Shown here in pieces: positions 23,253 to 33,607 of a stretch of DNA of 34,840 bases (its first letter is position 1; every line of letters begins with the position of its first letter). Both the position numbers and the translations under genes were made by a program. The DNA is taken from assembly GCA_017622815.1 (NCBI GenBank), contig JAGAQH010000021.1, positions 69,335 through 104,174 of the forward strand, in the 5' to 3' direction. Below the pieces are notes generated by a model, which saw only the letters and a list, made by a program, of their open reading frames with translations, was not told where the DNA came from and did no database searches. Source of the DNA: Bacteroidaceae bacterium (lineage in GTDB: Bacteria > Bacteroidota > Bacteroidia > Bacteroidales > Bacteroidaceae).

Positions 23253-24632
23253 ATGTTTAGGATACTGATATCTTATATTATAGTTGTGCTTTTTTCCTCA
23301 CTATGTTCCCATGCGCAGAAATTGGAATCATCTGCCAGTTGGACGGGCGAGTTATCCATAGGTACCAGTAAACTTCATATAGGCTTTAACATAAAGATAC
23401 TGTCCGATGACACATTTACTGGTACAATGGACGTACCTGAACAGGGCGCCAAGAACATTCCTATCAGTGTATTGAAGAACGACTCCGATAGTCTCAACAT
23501 ATCCATTCCGGCTTTAAGGGCCGTTTATAGGGGTCGCAAGTTGTCAGCCGAAAGCATAGAAGGCAAGTTTTCCCAAAACGGAGCAGTCCTTGATTTGAAT
23601 CTCAAACAAGGTAAATCCCTTTTGAAAAGACCTCAGACCCCCAATGCACCTTATGCCTATAAGTCAGAGGAAGTGTTGTTCAGTAATGAGGCAGAAGGTG
23701 CAGTACTGTCAGGAACATTGACATATCCTATAAATTACAATGCCTCGTCAAAGGATCAGACGCCTGTTGTCCTTATGGTTACAGGAAGTGGAGGTCAGGA
23801 CAGAAACGAGGAAATTTTCGGTCACAAGCCTTTCCTTGTTATAGCGGATTACCTTGCACGTCATGGCATTGCTTCCTTAAGGTACGATGATAGGGGAATA
23901 GGAAAATCCACAGGCCCCATCCGGGGTACGACAACGCAGAATAACCTTGCAGATGCAAAGGCCGGTATATCCTATCTTCGCAAACTGAACAAGTTCGGGA
24001 AGGTTGGTGTAATAGGACATAGCGAGGGAGGTACCATAGCCTTCATGCTGGGAGCGGAAAAGAGTGTTGACTTCCTTGTTTCACTTGCAGGAAGTGTCGC
24101 TAACGGCATTGATGTCATAGTGAGTCAGAACGAGGCTATGATGCGACAACAGGGTGTACCACAGGAGATTATAGGTAACTATGCCAAGGCATTGCGCATA
24201 TTGTATAAGGACCGTGTAGAGGGTAAGGAGATCAACGACCCTGTCAGGTACACAGAGGACTTGTGTAATGCTGAGAACCTCACTTTGCCAGGCGCTCTAA
24301 AGACAAACCTTTTAAAGTGCGTTTCAGCCGGTGGTGAGTGGTTTACATGGTTCCTGCGTTATAGTCCTGCCGAGGCAATAAGAAAGGTTGCATGTCCCGT
24401 AATGGCTCTGAACGGAACCCTTGACCTTCAGGTACTGAGCAAGGACAACATACCCGTAATCAGGGACAATCTGCCTTCAAACTCCAAGAACATCATCAGG
24501 GAATATGAATCTCTCAACCACCTTTTCCAGCACTGCACCCCTGCCACGACCTTGAATTACGGAGCAATAGAAGAAACCATATCCGAGGAGGTACTCAGTG
24601 ATATGGTTGGATGGATAAATGCGATAAATTAA
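23253..24632 (+). CDS. Exported alpha/beta-hydrolase (serine aminopeptidase/esterase-like)
   Basis: A 459-residue protein from the ATG at 23253; the frame extends upstream to a TTG at 23232 but the ATG gives a clean signal peptide (about 1-22, ending 'SSLCSHAQ'). Residues about 25-125 are a beta-rich N-terminal domain common in Bacteroidetes secreted hydrolases. The alpha/beta-hydrolase domain follows, with 'VVLMVTGSGGQDRNEE' (oxyanion strand), 'LRYDDRGIGKSTG' and the nucleophile elbow 'GHSEGG', giving Ser257. Asp391 ('LNGTLDLQV') and His423 ('ESLNHLFQH') complete a plausible triad. Substrate is unknown; peptide or ester hydrolysis in the periplasm or outside is inferred. It is the last gene before the structured leader at 24808. 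Confidence 0.85.
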   Translation: MFRILISYIIVVLFSSLCSHAQKLESSASWTGELSIGTSKLHIGFNIKILSDDTFTGTMDVPEQGAKNIPISVLKNDSDSLNISIPALRAVYRGRKLSAESIEGKFSQNGAVLDLNLKQGKSLLKRPQTPNAPYAYKSEEVLFSNEAEGAVLSGTLTYPINYNASSKDQTPVVLMVTGSGGQDRNEEIFGHKPFLVIADYLARHGIASLRYDDRGIGKSTGPIRGTTTQNNLADAKAGISYLRKLNKFGKVGVIGHSEGGTIAFMLGAEKSVDFLVSLAGSVANGIDVIVSQNEAMMRQQGVPQEIIGNYAKALRILYKDRVEGKEINDPVRYTEDLCNAENLTLPGALKTNLLKCVSAGGEWFTWFLRYSPAEAIRKVACPVMALNGTLDLQVLSKDNIPVIRDNLPSNSKNIIREYESLNHLFQHCTPATTLNYGAIEETISEEVLSDMVGWINAIN

Positions 24633-24807
24633 GTAAACTTTATACATAGTAAATAAAACATAGTTATATCTTTATTCATTCATTTATTCATTTATTCATA
24701 CAAATTCTATATATTTGCAGAGCGAATTTAAACAAATAGTCACTAACAATTAAAATTGTTTAGCCAATGAATTAAAATAAAACGTACATATTACATATTA
24801 TAATATA
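24633..24807. other. Intergenic AT-rich stretch with ATTCATTT repeats
   Basis: Very AT-rich. A short tandem repeat of TTTATTCA/TTCATTCA type lies at about 24670-24700, directly upstream of a promoter-like box. No ORF of note. This segment would form the upstream part of the leader of the LRR operon. Confidence 0.6.
24710..24717 (+). promoter_or_regulatory. Predicted -7 box of the LRR operon
   Basis: TATATTTG matches TAnnTTTG perfectly. The -33 region is weak (best TTCA at a 19-base spacing). If used, transcription would start near 24724 and give a leader of roughly 280 bases before the ATG at 25006, including the whole structured element. Confidence 0.4.
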
Positions 24808-24980
24808 GAGCTTTTGGCTCTTGTTCTCTTTCCATTGAAAACCGCCAATTTTCTACACCGGGAACAAGTGACTGAAGGTTCACGTCCGTTAGGCGTGGAT
24901 CATTCTTTGCTTGTGGTGTAGTGGTTACTTGGCGGTTACCAAATGGAAAACAAGTGAACGAATGATAACACGCCTTTTTT
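24808..24980 (+). ncRNA. Structured RNA leader with possible terminator switch
   Basis: An extended rod can be drawn by eye from nested complementary blocks: CTTGTT (24820-825) with AACAAG (24949-954); TTCCATT (24830-836) with AATGGAA (24942-948); AACCGCCAA (24840-848) with TTGGCGGTT (24929-937); CTACACC (24853-859) with GGTGTAG (24915-921); ACAAG (24864-868) with CTTGT (24910-914); and an apical GGTTCACG (24877-884) with CGTGGATC (24894-901). This is about 45 base pairs. An alternative stem pairs AGGCGTG/ATCATTC (24891-24905) with GAATGAT/CACGCCT (24960-24975) and runs into TTTTTT at 24975-24980, i.e. an intrinsic-terminator shape. The two use the same 5' arm, so they should exclude each other. 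The U-tract ends 25 bases before the LRR gene. It matches no riboswitch class I can recognise; a stand-alone 6S-like RNA is another possibility. Confidence 0.6.
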
Positions 24981-25005
24981 ATTTATTAACCATAACAACA
25001 TTATT

Positions 25006-28000
25006 ATGAATAAAGCAAAATTACGCTTTGCCCTCTTTGTGGCAAGCATCTGCATGTGTGTATTTTCATGGGCAGAGAGAGTGGCACCGACATTTCCAAA
25101 CTTTACGACATTGGAGAGTGGTAAGAATTATTACCTTTACAATGTGGAAACTGGTAAGTTTCTGAATCGCAGTACGGTAAGCAATTCATATCCGGGTGTA
25201 GGCACTTATGGCGCAGCAATTACAATAACGCAGACATCCAATGGTTCGTATACAATGCGTTTTGCTGACGGGACAACAACCTACTATCTTTATGCGGATG
25301 CCAGCACAACTTCATCGAGGTCGTCTTTGAATTCTACTTGCTACTTTGCCATCAAGGACAGCCTAAGTGGTTATGTCATTCAGCGTTCTGCGAATAACAC
25401 TAATTATTATGTGGCCAATGAATATTTAGGTTATGCAGACGGAGCATCTAACGACCGTATTGTCCCCAACTTGACTACAGGAAATATAGTATGGCAACTG
25501 ATGGAAACGGCTGAGGCCGAGCGTTATTTCGCTAAGCATAAGTTGTATACGGCATTGGAGGCAATGAATCCCTACTATTATAATATTGACCAATACGAGG
25601 CAATCTATGCCAATCCCGAAAGTACGAATGAGGAGTTGACAACTGCCGCAAAAGCATTAACGACTGCATTGTCATTAACAACATCTTTCAACACTCCAGA
25701 TTGGACAGAATTCCCATTCTTGATAAAGAGTGGAAGTGTCAATAATTCAGGAGAACTATATAAAAAGGTTACTAGTGAGGGAACTGCCAGTATTACTGGT
25801 ACTGTAACAGTTGACCAAAACTCAACACTGATATACAATACCCTTTATTCACATTATGATAATGTGAGTCTGTCTGTATATGTTGATGGAGAAATTGTAC
25901 GCACTTTAAAAGGTTATCAATTAAATAATAATGACCGTTGTTTTGACAAGTTGACACCAGGAACTCACCATATAGAATGGCGTTGGGAATATACCGGTTC
26001 AAGCAGTGTTAATTGTTATTTGAAAGAAATAGGTGTGAGAGCTATACCTGCTACTATTGAGGTTAGTCTTTTGGAACCAGGTAGTTTAGGTACTGAGGTT
26101 CTTTACAACGTAGATCATTTGAAGGACGTACGTTGCTTGAAGATTAAAGGAAAAATGAATGATGACGACTGGGAAAAAGTGGGCATGATGACCAATCTGT
26201 TTTCACTTGATCTAAGTGAAGCCGATGTAACTTTAATACCTGAAAGTCAGTTTAACTCTAGTCTATTTTTACATGAAATTATATTGCCTAACGCGTTGGA
26301 GGAAATAGGGGATAATGCCTTTAAAAATTCTTATATCCAAACCTTTAAATTCCCTCAAACTTTGAAGAGAATTGGAGAATATGCTTTTAGAGAATCTAAT
26401 ATTGCAGGAAATGTTATTTTTCCTAAAAGTATGGAACTTATAGATGATTATGCATTCTACGGATGCGATTTTATAGAAAAGGCTATCCTCCCAGATAGTT
26501 TGACGTCAATAGGAAAATATGCATTCTATGATTGTGATCGTATGACCCAAGTTACTTTTCCTAAGAACTTGAAAACTATCGGAGAGTGTTGTTTTAAAGA
26601 TTGTGGTACACTTAAGGCATCTCCATTGCCAGAAGGACTTTTAAGAATTGAAAATAGTGCATTTGCTAATGCATTCAGGTTCAATACTCGTTTACCAAAG
26701 ACATTGACCACCATAGGTGAGTGTGCTTTTATGAATTGTGCTATCGATTCTTTGTTTATTCCTGAATCTCTGACTTCATGGATAAGTGATGACTATGATA
26801 AAAGCAGCAATGCATTCAGTGATAACAACAAATTGGTTTATGCAGAGTTCCCGACCTCTTTCTATCAAATTCCTCTTCCGTTTATAATAGCAGGATGCGA
26901 AAATCTAAAGACACTGGTATTCAAATCTCCTACTGTCGTATCTGCTCCAGCAAATAATGATGATTATAAGGAAAGATTCCTTGAAGACGTTGTTGCAGAG
27001 AATTTGACTATCAAGGTTCCCTCGTACCTTGTAAATTCCTACAAATTGGATTCGTATTGGTATAACTATAAGATAGAAGGATTCAACACAGCCGATATAA
27101 AAGATTGGAAAATCAGTGCAGATTTGGTATTGAATGCACGTGAACGAATAGAAGGTGTACCCAACCTGACACTGTCAACCTATGGTTCAATAAAAGTAAA
27201 TGGTGAGAATCCTCAGAACATAGACAAATTACAAACAAACACAAACACGAATAATAATGAAGGACTTAAGTTTTCAAGGATTCTGATTAACAACGATGCT
27301 ACTACAATTGCAGGAAAATATAGACATTCTTATTATGCCAATGCCAATAAGTGGTACTTCATCAGTCTTCCTTTCGACTTTAAAATAGATGAGGTGACCA
27401 ATGGTGCAGGTGCTAAATTTGTAATCCGCTATTACGATGGTGCAGGTAGAGCTTCTAATGGAGCAAAAGGCAACTGGAAGAACTATGAAGCAACAGATAC
27501 GGTGAAGGCCGGTACTGGATTCATAGTGCAAACTAGTGCAAATGGATGGTTGAGTTTCTATGCGTTGAATAATGAAAGCAAGCAGTATGTAGTTTCAAAC
27601 AAGGAGTTTGTAAAGGCTTTAGATGCTAACCTATCGGAAAATAATTCTAATAGAGGATGGAATCTTGTGGGTAATCCTTGGCAGTGCTACTTCAACATAC
27701 ACACGCTGAACTTCACCGCCCCCATCACCGTATATGATGTAAATAACAAGACATATGTAGCATACTCTATCATTGATGACGACTATGCTATCCGTCCCAA
27801 TGAAGCCTTCTTCGTTCAATGTCCCGAAGGAACCGAGTTTATCTCCTTTCCACAGAATGGCCGTCAATTGACAAGCGTGATTACCAACCAGTCTGCGGCA
27901 CGCCCCATGTACTCACAGGCTTCAAACCGTCAGCTTATAGACATTACCGTCAGCGCAGACAAGTATACCGACAAGACACGTGTGGTACTGAACGAGACTT

Positions 28001-28548
28001 CTGCTCTTGGATACGAGACCAGTTATGATGCATGCAAGTTCATGACCATTGAGACTGGTGTTCCACAGATCTATACCATAGACAACGAGGAAACGGAATA
28101 TGCCATCAACGAACGTCCTCTGGACAAGGGCATAGTGAAACTGGGTGTAGTGGTATCAACCAGCGGCACACACAGAATCAGCATGCCTCGCAATGAGGCC
28201 GGTTCTGTCATACTGATTGACCACAATGCCGGAGTGAAGCACGACCTGTCAAAGGATGACTATGAATTTACCGCTGAAGCTGGCACATACAACTCTCGCT
28301 TCACCCTGAATATTACCAGCTCTTCTGAAACCGGCATCAAAGATGCTGAAATGGCAGACGGAGCATTGGAATGTGACGGCAACAACATTCTTGTGAACGG
28401 AATAAAGGGCAATGTTTCCGTATATACGGTGGACGGCCGCAAGGTGGCAGAAACCTACAGCAACGGAAACGTATCGTTCAACAATATGCCTCAGGGCATA
28501 TACATCGTACGCACAGTACAGGGAACAGGAAAAGTAACCGTAAAGTAA
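25006..28548 (+). CDS. BspA-like leucine-rich repeat surface protein
   Basis: A 1,180-residue secreted protein. A signal peptide lies at about 1-23 ('LRFALFVASICMCVFSWAE'). Residues about 35-345 hold ricin-like and sandwich-like segments ('YYLYNVETGKFLNRS'). Residues about 395-645 are LRR_5/BspA-type repeats of about 23 residues with the pattern 'LP.sL..IG..AF..C': 'ILPNALEEIGDNAFKN', 'FPQTLKRIGEYAFRES', 'ILPDSLTSIGKYAFYDC', 'FPKNLKTIGECCFKDC', 'LPKTLTTIGECAFMNC'. A long beta-rich region (about 725-1105) follows, and the last about 80 residues end in a type IX-sorting-like tail ('YTVDGRKVAETYSNGNVSF...MPQGIYIVRTVQG'). BspA relatives mediate adhesion and host binding; that role here is inference. 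It opens the operon; the next gene begins 13 bases after its stop. The LRR-coding half is visibly AT-richer than the 3' third. Confidence 0.9.
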   Translation: MNKAKLRFALFVASICMCVFSWAERVAPTFPNFTTLESGKNYYLYNVETGKFLNRSTVSNSYPGVGTYGAAITITQTSNGSYTMRFADGTTTYYLYADASTTSSRSSLNSTCYFAIKDSLSGYVIQRSANNTNYYVANEYLGYADGASNDRIVPNLTTGNIVWQLMETAEAERYFAKHKLYTALEAMNPYYYNIDQYEAIYANPESTNEELTTAAKALTTALSLTTSFNTPDWTEFPFLIKSGSVNNSGELYKKVTSEGTASITGTVTVDQNSTLIYNTLYSHYDNVSLSVYVDGEIVRTLKGYQLNNNDRCFDKLTPGTHHIEWRWEYTGSSSVNCYLKEIGVRAIPATIEVSLLEPGSLGTEVLYNVDHLKDVRCLKIKGKMNDDDWEKVGMMTNLFSLDLSEADVTLIPESQFNSSLFLHEIILPNALEEIGDNAFKNSYIQTFKFPQTLKRIGEYAFRESNIAGNVIFPKSMELIDDYAFYGCDFIEKAILPDSLTSIGKYAFYDCDRMTQVTFPKNLKTIGECCFKDCGTLKASPLPEGLLRIENSAFANAFRFNTRLPKTLTTIGECAFMNCAIDSLFIPESLTSWISDDYDKSSNAFSDNNKLVYAEFPTSFYQIPLPFIIAGCENLKTLVFKSPTVVSAPANNDDYKERFLEDVVAENLTIKVPSYLVNSYKLDSYWYNYKIEGFNTADIKDWKISADLVLNARERIEGVPNLTLSTYGSIKVNGENPQNIDKLQTNTNTNNNEGLKFSRILINNDATTIAGKYRHSYYANANKWYFISLPFDFKIDEVTNGAGAKFVIRYYDGAGRASNGAKGNWKNYEATDTVKAGTGFIVQTSANGWLSFYALNNESKQYVVSNKEFVKALDANLSENNSNRGWNLVGNPWQCYFNIHTLNFTAPITVYDVNNKTYVAYSIIDDDYAIRPNEAFFVQCPEGTEFISFPQNGRQLTSVITNQSAARPMYSQASNRQLIDITVSADKYTDKTRVVLNETSALGYETSYDACKFMTIETGVPQIYTIDNEETEYAINERPLDKGIVKLGVVVSTSGTHRISMPRNEAGSVILIDHNAGVKHDLSKDDYEFTAEAGTYNSRFTLNITSSSETGIKDAEMADGALECDGNNILVNGIKGNVSVYTVDGRKVAETYSNGNVSFNNMPQGIYIVRTVQGTGKVTVK

Positions 28549-28561
28549 AAATCATGCAACT

Positions 28562-30028
28562 ATGAAAAGAACAAGATATTTGTCCTTTCTGGCGATGTTG
28601 CTCTGCTGTCTTGTTGCTTGGGGACAAGATGACTTTAACCCTACCAGCCCAACGGAACCCGGTGTGCCTCCCAGAAAACTGACTCTGAAGGCAAACCCGT
28701 CGGACGGCGGTACGGTATATGGTAGCGGACGATATGTCCCTGGCACAACCGTGGGGATTCGTGTATCAAATGCTACAGGATATGTATTTGAAAACTGGAC
28801 GGATGAAAATGGTAATGTAATATCTAAAAGTAAATCGTACAGTTACACAAAAGGAGACAGTGACGAAGTACTGATTGCCAACTTCACCTTCAATCCAGAC
28901 GACCCCAATGAGCCTGACGACCCGAAACTGATCCAATACTTCCGCCTGACACTGGCCGCCGAAACCGGCGGCTCAGTGAGCGGTGGCGGTAAGTATCAGG
29001 CAGGAAAGTCCATACGACTGATAGCATCTGCTGATGAAGGATTCAAGTTTGTAAACTGGACAAACACGAAAGATGAGGTCGTGTCTACAGAGCGTGACTT
29101 CTACTATGCGACAACGGCAGAAAATGAAACTCTGACTGCCCATTTTGCTTTTGACCCCAATAATCCGGTTGAACCGTCTGACCCGATTCTCAGACACAAC
29201 ATTACCGTGAGTACGGAAGACGGCGGTACTGTCAGTGTGGGAAGCGGACGCTTGCTGGAAGGAAACAGTACAACACTCAAGGCCGTGGCAAACGACGGAT
29301 ATGTCTTCGTGGGATGGTATCTGAACGACGAACTGTATACCACACTGAATTCTTTCTCGTACACAATGGGTAAGGAAAATGTGGACTTTATGGCAGTATT
29401 CCAATTCTCTCCTGCTTCTCCTAACGAACCGTCAATGCCAACAGACAAGAAATATTCTTTCTACCTGATGACGGTAAATGGCAAGCCGGGAGATGTGCTG
29501 AATGTTCCGTTGATATTGTCAAATCTCGAAGACCTGTACGACATGACGTTCCAGATAACTTTCCCATTGGGACTTGAACCTGACTTGGAGGAGATCTACC
29601 TGTCGGAAAAGGCTGTAGGGTACGACGTATCAATGACTGCGGTAGACGATACGACATACATGTTCTCCATGATTGGCGGTAAGGTGTCAGCCACAAGTAC
29701 AGAATTGCTAAGATTCCGTGTAAAGGTTGCTGATGACTATACTACAGGAACTTCTGGACGTGTGAAGATAAACCAGGTTTCCGTAACGGAAGCTGATGGC
29801 AACCACCTGACTGCTTCTACACGAAACGGACGTATAGCAATATATAAAAACGGTGATACTAATGGTGACAATGAAGTGGATGTATCTGACGTGATGAACC
29901 TTGCCAACTATGTACTGAAGAAGAAGACAGAGGTTTTCATTGAAGAGGTTTCTGATGTTACCGAGGACAATGAAATAGATGTAGCGGATGCTATGGGAAT
30001 TGTTAATATTGTACTTAAAAAAGAATGA
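28562..30028 (+). CDS. Secreted InlB-type repeat protein with cohesin-like and dockerin domains
   Basis: A 488-residue exported protein. A signal peptide (about 1-21) is followed by three divergent InlB B-repeats at about 38-115, 125-198 and 211-283, each with a 'G(G/S).V..G...GRY..G..(T/V)...A..GY.F..W' pattern. A proline-rich linker of the form F-x-P-x-x-P-x-E-P-x-x-P occurs four times, before the first repeat ('FNPTSPTEPGVPP') and after each repeat ('FNPDDPNEPDDP', 'FDPNNPVEPSDP', 'FSPASPNEPSMP'). Residues about 298-428 form a cohesin-like beta-sandwich ('GKPGDVLNVPLILSNLEDLY'). Residues 430-488 are a type I dockerin with two Ca-binding loops ('DTNGDNEVDVSDVMNLANYV' and 'DVTEDNEIDVADAMGIVNIV'). 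A cohesin-like and a dockerin module in one chain suggest assembly with partner proteins (inference). Its TGA overlaps the next ATG (ATGA). Confidence 0.88.
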   Translation: MKRTRYLSFLAMLLCCLVAWGQDDFNPTSPTEPGVPPRKLTLKANPSDGGTVYGSGRYVPGTTVGIRVSNATGYVFENWTDENGNVISKSKSYSYTKGDSDEVLIANFTFNPDDPNEPDDPKLIQYFRLTLAAETGGSVSGGGKYQAGKSIRLIASADEGFKFVNWTNTKDEVVSTERDFYYATTAENETLTAHFAFDPNNPVEPSDPILRHNITVSTEDGGTVSVGSGRLLEGNSTTLKAVANDGYVFVGWYLNDELYTTLNSFSYTMGKENVDFMAVFQFSPASPNEPSMPTDKKYSFYLMTVNGKPGDVLNVPLILSNLEDLYDMTFQITFPLGLEPDLEEIYLSEKAVGYDVSMTAVDDTTYMFSMIGGKVSATSTELLRFRVKVADDYTTGTSGRVKINQVSVTEADGNHLTASTRNGRIAIYKNGDTNGDNEVDVSDVMNLANYVLKKKTEVFIEEVSDVTEDNEIDVADAMGIVNIVLKKE

Positions 30029-31533
30029 TTATGAAACATATGATAGTGCTTCTCTTTCTTATGGTTGTACATACCATAGGAAAGTCAGAAAATATCATAC
30101 AGGTTGTTCCTTTTGAAACCAAGGCGGGAATAACGACAGATGATATGCAGAGTTTCAGTATAGAGATGAGGAACTCAGAAAAGATGTTGGCATTTCAGTT
30201 TGACATACTTCTGCCTGAAGGTATGTCTCTCGATAATACCGATGGCCTTGATCCATTTGAATTCAACGAAGACCGTGTATCATATACTGTTGACAGGCGT
30301 GGAAACAAGACTTTTGACTATCTTGCAGAATATAGTGAACCGTTTGATGGTGGGTGGATTACCGTCATGGTATTTACCCTTGAGGAGGATGGTGAACTTA
30401 CAGGACTTGATGGTGAGATAATGAGGGCGTATTATTTAACCGATGCTAATATGGAGCCTGGTGTTTATCCAGTACGCATCCGTAACACTGTAATTGCCAA
30501 TGCCGATAATACCAAGAAGTTCAAGCCTGGCGAGTCAACATCTTACATTACGATAGGAGAATCTCCGTTAAAGGCAGAATCAAGGGTAGAACTTAAGGAG
30601 TTGACTGGCTATATTCCGTCATTTACCATTGAGGCTATGAATATGGAAATGTCAGGTAACAGTAACATTACTTCACTTGATATCAGCAATGCTGACTCTA
30701 TTGGAGCAATACCTATGATGGGTAATGGTCTTGTACAACTATCAGAATCTGCTGCAGAATCCTCAATTTTGCATGATGCTGCCAATATAGTTGCTATGGG
30801 TACTGAGGGTAATACCTGTAAGCGTCTCTATCTTGCAGACGGAGACAGAGCTTTTTGTTCTCCATGCTCTTTTACTGCTACAAATGCAAGTTTTGACAGA
30901 GTATTTAAGGCAGGACAATGGTCTACTGTGTGTCTTCCTTTCAATGTACCTGCAGAACAACTTGCAAAAATATGTGACAAGGGAGTTGAAGTAGAGCGAC
31001 TTGTTGAATATGATGCGGTTGGAAATATACTCAGATTTGAGGCAGTTACAGAAATGGAGGCTAATACGCCATACATTATAAAGTGTAACAGCGACAATGC
31101 TCCATTTTCAGAACTTACAAATGTTGATGTTTCTGAAAGTGATGGTGTGAAAAGCATACAGATTAATGATGCCTCAATGGTTGGAGTGTTTTCCACCACA
31201 TATCTTGATTCTGATGCTTCAGTGTCGTATTATGGCTATAATTCTGCAGATGGCACATTTGTGAAGATAGGTAGCAATGGAACAGTGTATCCATTCCGTG
31301 CTTTTATATCTATTCCGTCTGAAGTGACAGAAGCAAGACTAATAGGGGTAGAGCATGGAGATGGAAATATGACAGGTGTGCTGAATACCGAATGTGATTC
31401 CAGTGATGCGGAGGTGAAAGTATATGCTTTAGACGGTAAATTAGTACGTAATTGTGTAAACAAGACCTATGATGCTACGTGTTTGCCAGAAGGAGTTTAT
31501 TTAATAGGTAGTAGAAAAGTTATTGTGAAATGA
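30025..31533 (+). CDS. Secreted cohesin-like protein with type IX-like C-terminal tail
   Basis: A 502-residue protein. The start overlaps the upstream stop as ATGA (30025-30028); a second in-frame ATG at 30031 is possible. A signal peptide (about 1-20) precedes a cohesin-like beta-sandwich at about 24-180 ('FSIEMRNSEKMLAFQFDILL' resembles the cohesin strand around the binding face). A beta-rich middle region follows, with 'WSTVCLPFNVPAEQLAKIC', a segment often found near the C-terminus of Prevotella surface proteins, and a final sorting-like tail 'YALDGKLVRNCVN...LPEGVYLIGSRKVIVK'. It could act as the binding partner of the dockerin in the preceding protein, which is a testable inference. The ATGA overlap with the 67-residue gene indicates coupled translation. 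Confidence 0.8.
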   Translation: MIMKHMIVLLFLMVVHTIGKSENIIQVVPFETKAGITTDDMQSFSIEMRNSEKMLAFQFDILLPEGMSLDNTDGLDPFEFNEDRVSYTVDRRGNKTFDYLAEYSEPFDGGWITVMVFTLEEDGELTGLDGEIMRAYYLTDANMEPGVYPVRIRNTVIANADNTKKFKPGESTSYITIGESPLKAESRVELKELTGYIPSFTIEAMNMEMSGNSNITSLDISNADSIGAIPMMGNGLVQLSESAAESSILHDAANIVAMGTEGNTCKRLYLADGDRAFCSPCSFTATNASFDRVFKAGQWSTVCLPFNVPAEQLAKICDKGVEVERLVEYDAVGNILRFEAVTEMEANTPYIIKCNSDNAPFSELTNVDVSESDGVKSIQINDASMVGVFSTTYLDSDASVSYYGYNSADGTFVKIGSNGTVYPFRAFISIPSEVTEARLIGVEHGDGNMTGVLNTECDSSDAEVKVYALDGKLVRNCVNKTYDATCLPEGVYLIGSRKVIVK

Positions 31534-31945: not shown

Positions 31946-33607
31946 ATGAAGAAACTCTCTTTCTTTCTTTTTATAGCCTTAGTCATTGCAGGCACTCTTT
32001 CTGCCAATGCCCAGCGTGCTGAGTACGATGTCATCCCCTTGCCCAAGGAGGTGAAGGTTAACTCTGCCAATGTGTTTGTACTGAAAAACGGTATGGGAGT
32101 GTCGTTTGATGCTTCCAATGAGGAAGTTTATAGGAATGTGTTGTTTTTCCGTCAGTGGATAGAGGAAACTACAGGCATAACACTGAAACTTGCACCTGGC
32201 GACAAGAAGGCTGCCGTACGTATGAGCCTTGACTATCCTAAGGCCAAGGGTGAGGTTGAATCAGACCTTACAGAACAGCAAAAGGAGGCATATATGATAA
32301 AGGTGGACAAGAAGGGCATTGCCATCATTGCCCGCCAGCCTATAGGCCTGTTCCGTGCTGCCCAGACTTTGCGCAAATCACTTCCTATTGTCAAGAATGC
32401 CGACAAGGTGGAACTTCCCTATGCCGAGATATTCGACGAACCACGTTTCGAGTATCGTGGCGTACTTCTTGATTGCGGAAGACACTATTTTACCGTGGAG
32501 TTCATAAAGAAGTTCCTGGACGTTATGGCCCTGCATGGCAGCAACCAGTTCCACTGGCATCTTACTGAAGACCAGGGATGGCGTTTCGAGGTGAAGGCAT
32601 ATCCCAGCCTTGCACAAAAGGGCAGTGTACGTGCCGAAACGGTTATAGGTCCTGGAAATTCAGGTATATATAATGGTACTCCCTATGGTGGATACTACAC
32701 TCAGGAGGAGTGCCGCGAGGTGGTGCGCTATGCTGCCGAGCGCTATATCAACGTAGTTCCGGAGATAGACCTTCCCGGCCACATGCAGAGTGCCCTGCAT
32801 GTGTTCCCTCATCTCGGATGCACCGGAGGCCCTTATCCCGTGCGCACCTATTGGGGTGTAAGCCGTGAGGTTCTCTGTGGCGGTAATCCCGAGACGCTGA
32901 CATTCCTGAAGACAGTACTTGGCGAACTCTGCGATGTCTTCCCCTCCAAATACATACATATCGGCGGTGACGAATGTCCCAAGCACCGTTGGCAGAAGTG
33001 TCCCACATGTCAGGCAAAGATAAAGGAACTGGGCCTGAAGAACGATGGCAAGCACACTCCTGAGAACCAGTTGCAGAGCTACATTAACCGTGAGGTGGAA
33101 TCCTTTATGAAGGAACGTGGCCGTGCCATTATCGGTTGGGACGAGATTCTGGAAGGCGGCCTTTCCGGCGAATCCATCATCATGTCATGGCGTGGAACAA
33201 AGGGTGGAATAGCAGCGGCCCGTCAGGGACACAGGGTAATCATGAGCCCCAATGTATTCTCATACATCGACCATCCCCAGTTGAAGGACCTTGGCAAGCA
33301 ACCCCGTACTACGGACAGTTATATAGTTTCCGCCAGCAAGGTATATTCCTTCGAGCCCCTTATCCCCGACAGCCTCACCAAGGAGCAGCAAAGACTTATC
33401 CTTGGTCCCCAGGTAAATCTTTGGACAGAGCACGTGGCATATCCTCAGCATGCCTTCTACCAACTCCTGCCAAGACTGGGTGCATCCAGCGAGGTCCAGT
33501 GGTGCAACCCAGACCAGAAGAACTTCGACTACTTCAAGAAGCGTCTGCCGCGCCTGAAGAAGTTGTACGACATCATTGGTGTCAACTATTGCAAGCAGTT
33601 GGAATAA
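31946..33607 (+). CDS. Secreted GH20 beta-N-acetylhexosaminidase
   Basis: Releases terminal beta-linked GlcNAc or GalNAc from glycans in the periplasm or outside. The protein has 553 residues with a signal peptide (about 1-22, 'FFLFIALVIAGTLSANAQ'). The GH20b domain spans about 25-160. The catalytic barrel starts at 'RFEYRGVLLDCGRHYFTVEF' (about 167-186), includes 'HWHLTEDQGWRFEVKAYP', and has the catalytic pair Asp342-Glu343 in 'YIHIGGDECPKHRW'. Trp residues of the substrate pocket are seen in 'IIGWDEILEGG', 'IIMSWRGTKGG' and 'NLWTEHVAYP'. It lacks a type IX-like tail, unlike the GH2 and GH84 enzymes here. It stands alone between the operon terminator and a non-coding repeat region and probably has its own promoter; no good -7 box was found (best TATATTTA at 31891). 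Confidence 0.95.
   Translation: MKKLSFFLFIALVIAGTLSANAQRAEYDVIPLPKEVKVNSANVFVLKNGMGVSFDASNEEVYRNVLFFRQWIEETTGITLKLAPGDKKAAVRMSLDYPKAKGEVESDLTEQQKEAYMIKVDKKGIAIIARQPIGLFRAAQTLRKSLPIVKNADKVELPYAEIFDEPRFEYRGVLLDCGRHYFTVEFIKKFLDVMALHGSNQFHWHLTEDQGWRFEVKAYPSLAQKGSVRAETVIGPGNSGIYNGTPYGGYYTQEECREVVRYAAERYINVVPEIDLPGHMQSALHVFPHLGCTGGPYPVRTYWGVSREVLCGGNPETLTFLKTVLGELCDVFPSKYIHIGGDECPKHRWQKCPTCQAKIKELGLKNDGKHTPENQLQSYINREVESFMKERGRAIIGWDEILEGGLSGESIIMSWRGTKGGIAAARQGHRVIMSPNVFSYIDHPQLKDLGKQPRTTDSYIVSASKVYSFEPLIPDSLTKEQQRLILGPQVNLWTEHVAYPQHAFYQLLPRLGASSEVQWCNPDQKNFDYFKKRLPRLKKLYDIIGVNYCKQLE

Follow-up and report, generated by a model that had tools for sequence, protein, structure and literature searches.

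A probable conditional terminator, one copy of a multi-copy Bacteroidota RNA family, ahead of a BspA-type LRR gene

The stretch of DNA analysed here (the window) comprises 34,840 nucleotides of a contig from a Bacteroidaceae bacterium. On its plus strand, positions 25006 to 28548 encode a BspA-type LRR protein of 1180 aa (PF13306) with a signal-peptide-like start, and two more ORFs lie close behind (28562-30028 and 30025-31533). The first of these contains InlB-type repeats together with cohesin and dockerin matches barely over the cut-offs; a family-20 glycoside hydrolase is found at 31946-33607. The LRR gene, which we presume to be the one controlled, is preceded by a segment (24808-25005) previously proposed to be an undescribed structured leader with two mutually exclusive folds. 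The promoter-like box on which that proposal drew is indeed read at 24710-24717 of the plus strand. Its sequence, TATATTTG, is a -7 box of the TAnnTTTG type, a Bacteroidota promoter motif, and similar boxes stand at similar distances in relatives (see below). The transcript start can be guessed to lie near 24722.

When the segment 24808-25005 was folded as plus-strand RNA, a rod of -64.5 kcal/mol was obtained (z -5.96), which none of 200 shuffles equalled; on the minus strand, where z was -3.83, one of 200 did so. A rod had been anticipated at 24820-24954. Folding reproduces it, but its base, in which the 5' CTTGTT pairs with the second copy of a repeat, finds no support across relatives. The repeat itself, AACAAGTGA..GAA, occurs twice as described (24863-24876 and 24949-24962), inside a 21-nt repeat of 76% identity. 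The apical hairpin of the rod lies where the original prediction put it, the real helix being slightly longer and pairing approximately 24874-24887 with 24892-24905. Also longer than claimed is the terminator-like stem, in which 24892-24914 pair with 24950-24974; its 22 pairs are interrupted by small bulges, and six T (24975-24980) follow at once. Folded alone, 24892-24980 yielded -35.3 kcal/mol and a z of -5.24.

By blastn the element was found at 17 places, spread over 8 of 61 genomes (counting that of the window). The match began exactly at 24808 in 12 of the 16 other places and a few bases earlier in four. A covariance model built from the 17 places (R1) had matches in 31 of the 61 genomes (E 0.01). 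A second sequence type, AAGCG...ACGCTTTTTT, has the architecture of the first and is commoner outside the first set; its apical-hairpin pattern occurs in at least 117 stretches of the genome collection. Among the matches listed, R1 also recognised 78 of 80 second-type loci (counting L102, where the match ends at the locus edge) and missed L087 and the 103-base L115. The first search of loci with R1 gave 89 matches, of which 70 were kept; 18 hits to the antisense strand of true copies, scoring up to 42 bits, were removed, as was a weak extra match in L055 (27 bits). The second gave 87, of which 79 were kept after removal of 7 antisense matches and that of L102. The 149 kept matches represent 146 distinct sequences. 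The weak L055 match, at 1161-1321 on the minus strand, lies downstream of a strong copy, at a distance of about 1.1 kb, and is possibly a decayed second copy. At L107:1613-1640 the apical-hairpin pattern has a second exact match on the opposite strand, where R1 reported no element.

From 92 loci, 92 matches entered alignment A5, at a cut-off set to shut out antisense hits. With a second model of 92 members (R2; E 1e-6, the window's genome counted in both samples), 58 of the 148 genomes sampled from the order gave matches (1-18 each), as did 18 of the 148 sampled from the phylum. Seven copies were found by model in the window's genome, and the one reported here is the single copy inside the window. 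Named carriers include Paraprevotella clara, Prevotella disiens, Hoylesella buccalis, Chryseobacterium, Flavobacterium soli and Bacteroides muris; among isolates, model matches number 14 in Bacteroides muris, 8 in Paraprevotella clara and 2 in Hoylesella buccalis. The lowest-scoring Paraprevotella clara member (L232:554-731) has a long, near-perfect terminator stem of wholly different sequence. The model searches covered the window's phylum. MAGs tried as an outside control fell within it: those labelled Paenibacillus (L121) and Limnohabitans (L146) gave the phylum-sample matches of the window's phylum, with identical coordinates and scores, and were therefore grouped with that phylum in the genome sampling. 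The public names of these two MAGs look wrong. A search for viral carriage gave one contig with the second-type apical-hairpin pattern, and plasmids gave no blastn match to the window copy.

Compensatory changes in homologues had been set beforehand as a test of the proposed leader, and they proved abundant. In the 92 aligned members, standard pairs made up 91.3% of paired cells, compared with 70.4% in shuffles and 39-43% when the partners were slid by 1-3 columns, and both-side changes were present in 42 of 46 pairs. A second alignment, of 68 members that are in neither model (some of them from genomes used before), gave 90.5% standard pairs and both-side changes in 36 of 41 pairs. Alignments fitted to a model favour the pairs of that model, a bias that the slid controls and the swap tests described below limit. 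Outside the rod base and one poorly paired column, G-U cells outnumbered C-A cells by 268 to 22, which identifies the plus-strand RNA as the structured, selected form.

The anatomy that emerges, here given for the plus strand with figures from the 92 members, is well supported. The conserved 5' edge of the element is a small hairpin, P1 (GAGC-TTTTG-GCTC, 24808-24820), with 98.1% of cells paired and both-side changes in all four pairs. Three helices of the rod were delimited by covariation. P2 joins 24829-24836 to 24942-24949 (98.5% of cells paired; both-side changes in 7/7 pairs), and P4 joins 24853-24859 to 24915-24921 (95.0%; 5/5). Between them, P3 joins 24840-24848 (AACCGCCAA) to 24929-24937 (TTGGCGGTT), with 93.5% of cells paired and both-side changes in 9/9 pairs. 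P3 varies in sequence from copy to copy while its pairing is kept: variants include CGCCAA, GTTTGGCG, ATTGGGG, CTGGTAA, CCTGAGAA and others, each matched by the opposite strand, and in some members the two strands are exchanged. The apical hairpin (24874-24905; 91.9% of cells paired) contributes its 3' arm as the 5' arm of the terminator-like hairpin, T. Two further strands have two partners each. M1 (24860-24871) can pair with M2 (24907-24914), forming the middle stem of the rod, or with L5 (24820-24828, CTTGTTCTC), whose partner in the terminator state is 24860-24868; this second pairing forms hairpin A. M2 in turn pairs with M1 in the rod or with 24950-24957 in hairpin T, which with its T-run extends over 24892-24980.

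The competing pairings were compared by a swap test, in which members were cut into strands and the duplex energy of each strand with its own partner was set against that with other members' partners; the test ignores shared ancestry. Own partners were better for the terminator stem in 88 of 92 members (-17.9 versus -13.2 swapped, p 2.6e-16), for the middle stem of the rod in 77 (-10.2 versus -7.3, p 3.7e-13) and for hairpin A in 76 (-3.4 versus -2.4, p 1.2e-9). Two negative pairings showed no advantage of the own partner in the 92 members or in 67 of the second set. In that second set (67 of the 68 rows, one truncated row being dropped) the own partner was better in 66 for the terminator, 53 for the middle stem and 51 for hairpin A. 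All three pairings also hold in the second sequence type alone (71 members; 60, 64 and 49 in the same order). Among the 21 members of the window's own type the terminator was better in 19 (p 3.1e-5), the middle stem marginally so in 14 (p 0.042), and hairpin A not significantly in 17 (p 0.15). The rod base proposed for the 5' CTTGTT with the second repeat copy was rejected (own -1.9 versus swapped -2.0, p 0.14 in the 92; p 0.24 in the 67). Thus, of the two partners once offered for CTTGTT, the first copy (24860-24868) is supported in relatives and the second is not. The rod and the terminator state are both conserved and share strands, as the claim of two mutually exclusive folds had it.

Hairpin A is the weakest part of the two-state anatomy. 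By local folding its stability in the window copy is at the level of shuffles (z -0.52); across members the 5' half folded alone had a z below -2 in 21 of 70, compared with 69 of 70 for the 3' half. Two small stems flank the strands of P3. P5 (GGT/ACC, 24923-24940) surrounds the 3' strand and covaries though it is unpaired in the rod: its third pair is T-A in 123, C-G in 19, T-G in 8, C-A in 3, T-T in 1 and C-T in 1 of the 155 rows parsed out of 160. The support for P5 comes from this pair-by-pair table, a cruder stem measure giving little (three or more pairs in 64 of 92; own mean 2.91 versus 2.79 swapped). P5 would cap the terminator and expose TTGGCGG in its loop. P6 (GAAAA/TTTTC, 24837-24853), seen in the local fold around the 5' strand, would likewise cap hairpin A and expose CCGCCAA. 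As a conserved stem P6 is weak (three or more pairs in 39 of 92; own mean 2.40 versus 2.30 swapped).

The surroundings of the members were then compared. A run of five or more T near the end is present in 128 of 146 distinct members, versus 6.9% of random 30-nt windows, a count that is partly circular because the model used to find members ends in that stretch; in the other 18 the longest run is just 3-4. In the second set, 53 of 67 have the run. Upstream of 142 members, the adjacent 200 nt contain 78 TAnnTTTG boxes in all, 62 of them lying at 54-133 nt and 11 farther away than 133 nt; control stretches of 200 nt, mostly coding, contain 8. A box within 140 nt was found for 60 members only, with a median estimated distance from start site to element of 67.5 nt; in the second set, 41 of 65 have a box 30-140 nt upstream. 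No structured segment was found between promoter and element (mean z -0.06, n=59; coding control -0.17, n=127).

On the other side, 116 of the 130 members with at least 500 nt downstream are followed by an ORF on the same strand, at a median gap of 60.5 nt and in some members as little as 8 nt past the T-run. The exceptions are an opposite-strand ORF in 5 and no ORF of 70 aa within 400 nt in 9. In the second set, in which same-strand ORFs only were counted, 56 of 62 have one within 300 nt. The folds thus act in plus-strand RNA ahead of a same-strand gene. By a crude hydrophobicity rule, exported-type starts were assigned to 94 of the 116 following proteins and to 91 of 420 other ORFs, the latter including shadow ORFs. 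The second set gave just 35 of 56, several of those that failed the rule looking like signal peptides by eye. BspA-type LRRs are present in 20 of the 116, and lipoprotein-like proteins also stand behind elements. Single following proteins match DarT, GmrSD and EcoRI-type and N6 methyltransferases, and some targets are not exported (restriction-modification, DarT, GmrSD). The original prediction was right to expect a surface-protein gene behind the window copy; the family extends beyond both Prevotella and LRR genes.

Some individual loci may be mentioned here. The elements of L107, L117, L153 and L018 stand ahead of genes of defence type (type I and EcoRI-type methyltransferases, DarT, GmrSD), each locus being given its family by eye from the N-termini; L107 and L117 both have the CCTGAGAA type of P3. 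In L084 (3273-3431 and 5174-5332), L062 (699-869 and 2081-2252), L149 and L194, two elements lie a few kb apart on one contig, each with a same-strand ORF behind it.

Three features of an attenuator are found in this family: a putative promoter, recognised by its consensus box only, stands in line with the gene on one strand, a terminator-like stem leads into a U-tract, and a conserved competing fold shares the strands of that stem. We therefore consider it likely that the element is a cis-acting conditional terminator, that is, a transcription-attenuation leader, and one copy of a multi-copy Bacteroidota RNA family; its role is probably that of a switch acting on surface and other exported proteins. 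In the model we propose, transcription would start roughly 45-100 nt upstream, behind the TAnnTTTG box. The 170-nt element could then close into the rod, made up of P2, P3, P4, the middle stem and the apical hairpin, which would leave the last strand free and let the polymerase read into the gene. Alternatively, hairpins A and T would form, the latter a long terminator running into the U-tract, and transcription would stop before the gene. Passage from one state to the other would be a cruciform-like strand exchange, which the complementary loops of A and T (the strands of P3) may begin, or they may persist as a kissing pair. A trans-acting factor (protein, RNA or metabolite) would tip the balance and so set surface and exported proteins.

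The steps of this model differ in strength. That hairpin T terminates transcription we infer. The least certain step is the rod as the default ON state, which we favour by a small margin. The split state costs on average 11.9 kcal/mol more than the unconstrained optimum of the whole element (5.7 in the window copy), and 24.5 kcal/mol more while the last strand has yet to be made. Since the optimum is below the split state by construction, the size of the gap is what is informative; it suggests that thermodynamics alone would not make the split state the resting fold, and hence that rod and read-through may be the default. Termination would then depend on something to hold hairpin A in place or to open the rod, and the trans-acting factor would presumably shift the balance by breaking the rod; kinetics could reverse the direction. 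A broader reading, in which a phylum-wide switch class of new architecture lets one shared signal control a large part of the variable surface proteome together with some phage-defence genes, with the P3 of each copy perhaps addressing a different trans-acting partner, is offered tentatively and may well be wrong.

A metabolite riboswitch would be a special case of the attenuation leader, with a small molecule at the internal loops beside P3 setting the fold. A two-state leader with a terminator-like stem, repeated in many copies ahead of genes with a common theme, suits it. However, the unpaired parts showed no strongly conserved core, P3 being hypervariable and the loops next to it resembling the strands of P5 and P6, while the downstream protein families point to no single metabolic pathway; nor did the element, in the window or in 20 diverse loci, match any known riboswitch class at gathering level. 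We regard this special case as unlikely. Less probable still is a stand-alone small RNA with a constant 3' end at the T-run and a function in trans, the following gene being transcribed from its own promoter. The promoter-like box, the element's own terminator-like stem and the many copies per genome would fit such an RNA, but not the closely spaced same-strand ORF that follows most members: where it begins 8 nt after the T-run there is no space for a promoter of its own. Moreover, a constant terminator needs no conserved rival rod.

Pairs of rod and terminator serve ribosome-mediated, leader-peptide attenuation elsewhere. As an account of this family we give it very little credence, since upstream short ORFs are depleted: ORFs that open with ATG and run for at least 8 codons were counted within the 70 nt leading up to the element in 22 of 144 members, versus 62 expected from mononucleotide shuffles. 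ATG-started ORFs of at least 8 codons starting inside the element numbered 106, versus 98 expected from such shuffles. Least credible of all is a DNA-level repeat (a REPIN-like palindrome or recombination site) placed before genes by chance, which would account for multi-copy, extragenic, palindromic sequences and for the several copies near contig ends in one fragmented genome (G052), but not for a strand polarity of 268 to 22, a fixed orientation to the following gene, or copies that are highly diverged with compensatory change rather than near-identical. A REPIN-type repeat was also rejected on the grounds that blastn recovers only the window's own copy in its genome, where the model recovers 7.

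Among gut and rumen bacteria the Bacteroidota are a major group, and few RNA-based regulators of their surface proteins have, to our knowledge, been described. A single RNA class ahead of many exported-protein genes and some restriction- or toxin-type defence genes points to a common signal. The copies in Bacteroides muris, Paraprevotella clara and Hoylesella buccalis make the proposal directly testable in named isolates.

Terminator/antiterminator leaders, such as attenuators and transcriptional riboswitches, resemble the element in their exclusive folds and in the U-tract terminator-like stem before the gene. They differ in that here a long rod competes with two hairpins with complementary loops, in a family that has no known class or ligand and extends across Bacteroidota, a sampled genome having as many as 18 matches. 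Conditional terminators are already known; what appears new is the architecture of this family, its breadth and its set of targets. The open-access literature (main text, supplements apart) held nothing that we recognised as this element, and a word search of the main text of two discovery papers on 26 and 50 genomes (PMC8632094, PMC11109978) gave no match. Long or structured leaders are described in B. thetaiotaomicron and F. psychrophilum (PMC7366714, PMC9723704), this element not being among those in the accessible parts of the two papers. Weinberg 2010 (PMC2864571) lists, in the part accessible, the structured Bacteroidota motifs Bacteroidales-1, Bacteroides-1, Bacteroid-trp and Flavo-1, as well as GUCCY-hairpin and Bacteroides-2, which have no Rfam number and are considered here by name and table row only. 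From the accessible part of PMC8040213, its 3161 human-microbiome candidates include palindromic, terminator-like ones found mainly in Bacteroidetes, among them HMP2_4205 and HMP2_1032 (reported lengths 132 and 106 bp; neighbouring genes TPR and TonB), for which that part describes no two-state switch. The family may thus already be among the unnamed candidates of that collection, with which it was compared by description only. It apparently has had no name so far.

Scans against Rfam 15 gave no match at gathering score in the window, and none at the element in 20 diverse loci. A scan of 24600-25100 by E-value returned four matches, all to unrelated families and far below gathering scores, and such scans of two other members gave nothing near threshold. 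The absence of a match, 6S included, agrees with the leader being undescribed, as first supposed. Bacteroidales-1, Bacteroides-1, Bacteroid-trp and Flavo-1 had no gathering match and were absent from the three E-value scans. 6S RNA and 6S-Flavo (RF01685) have a similarly long, rod-like fold, whereas the present family has many copies per genome, lies mostly before a gene, has a second, terminator-like fold and gives no gathering-score match to them; 6S RNA was rejected on the gathering and E-value scans. In a genome of the order, a fluoride riboswitch (RF01734, 60 bits) was seen at L086:3005-3067 on the minus strand, about 2 kb from a member.
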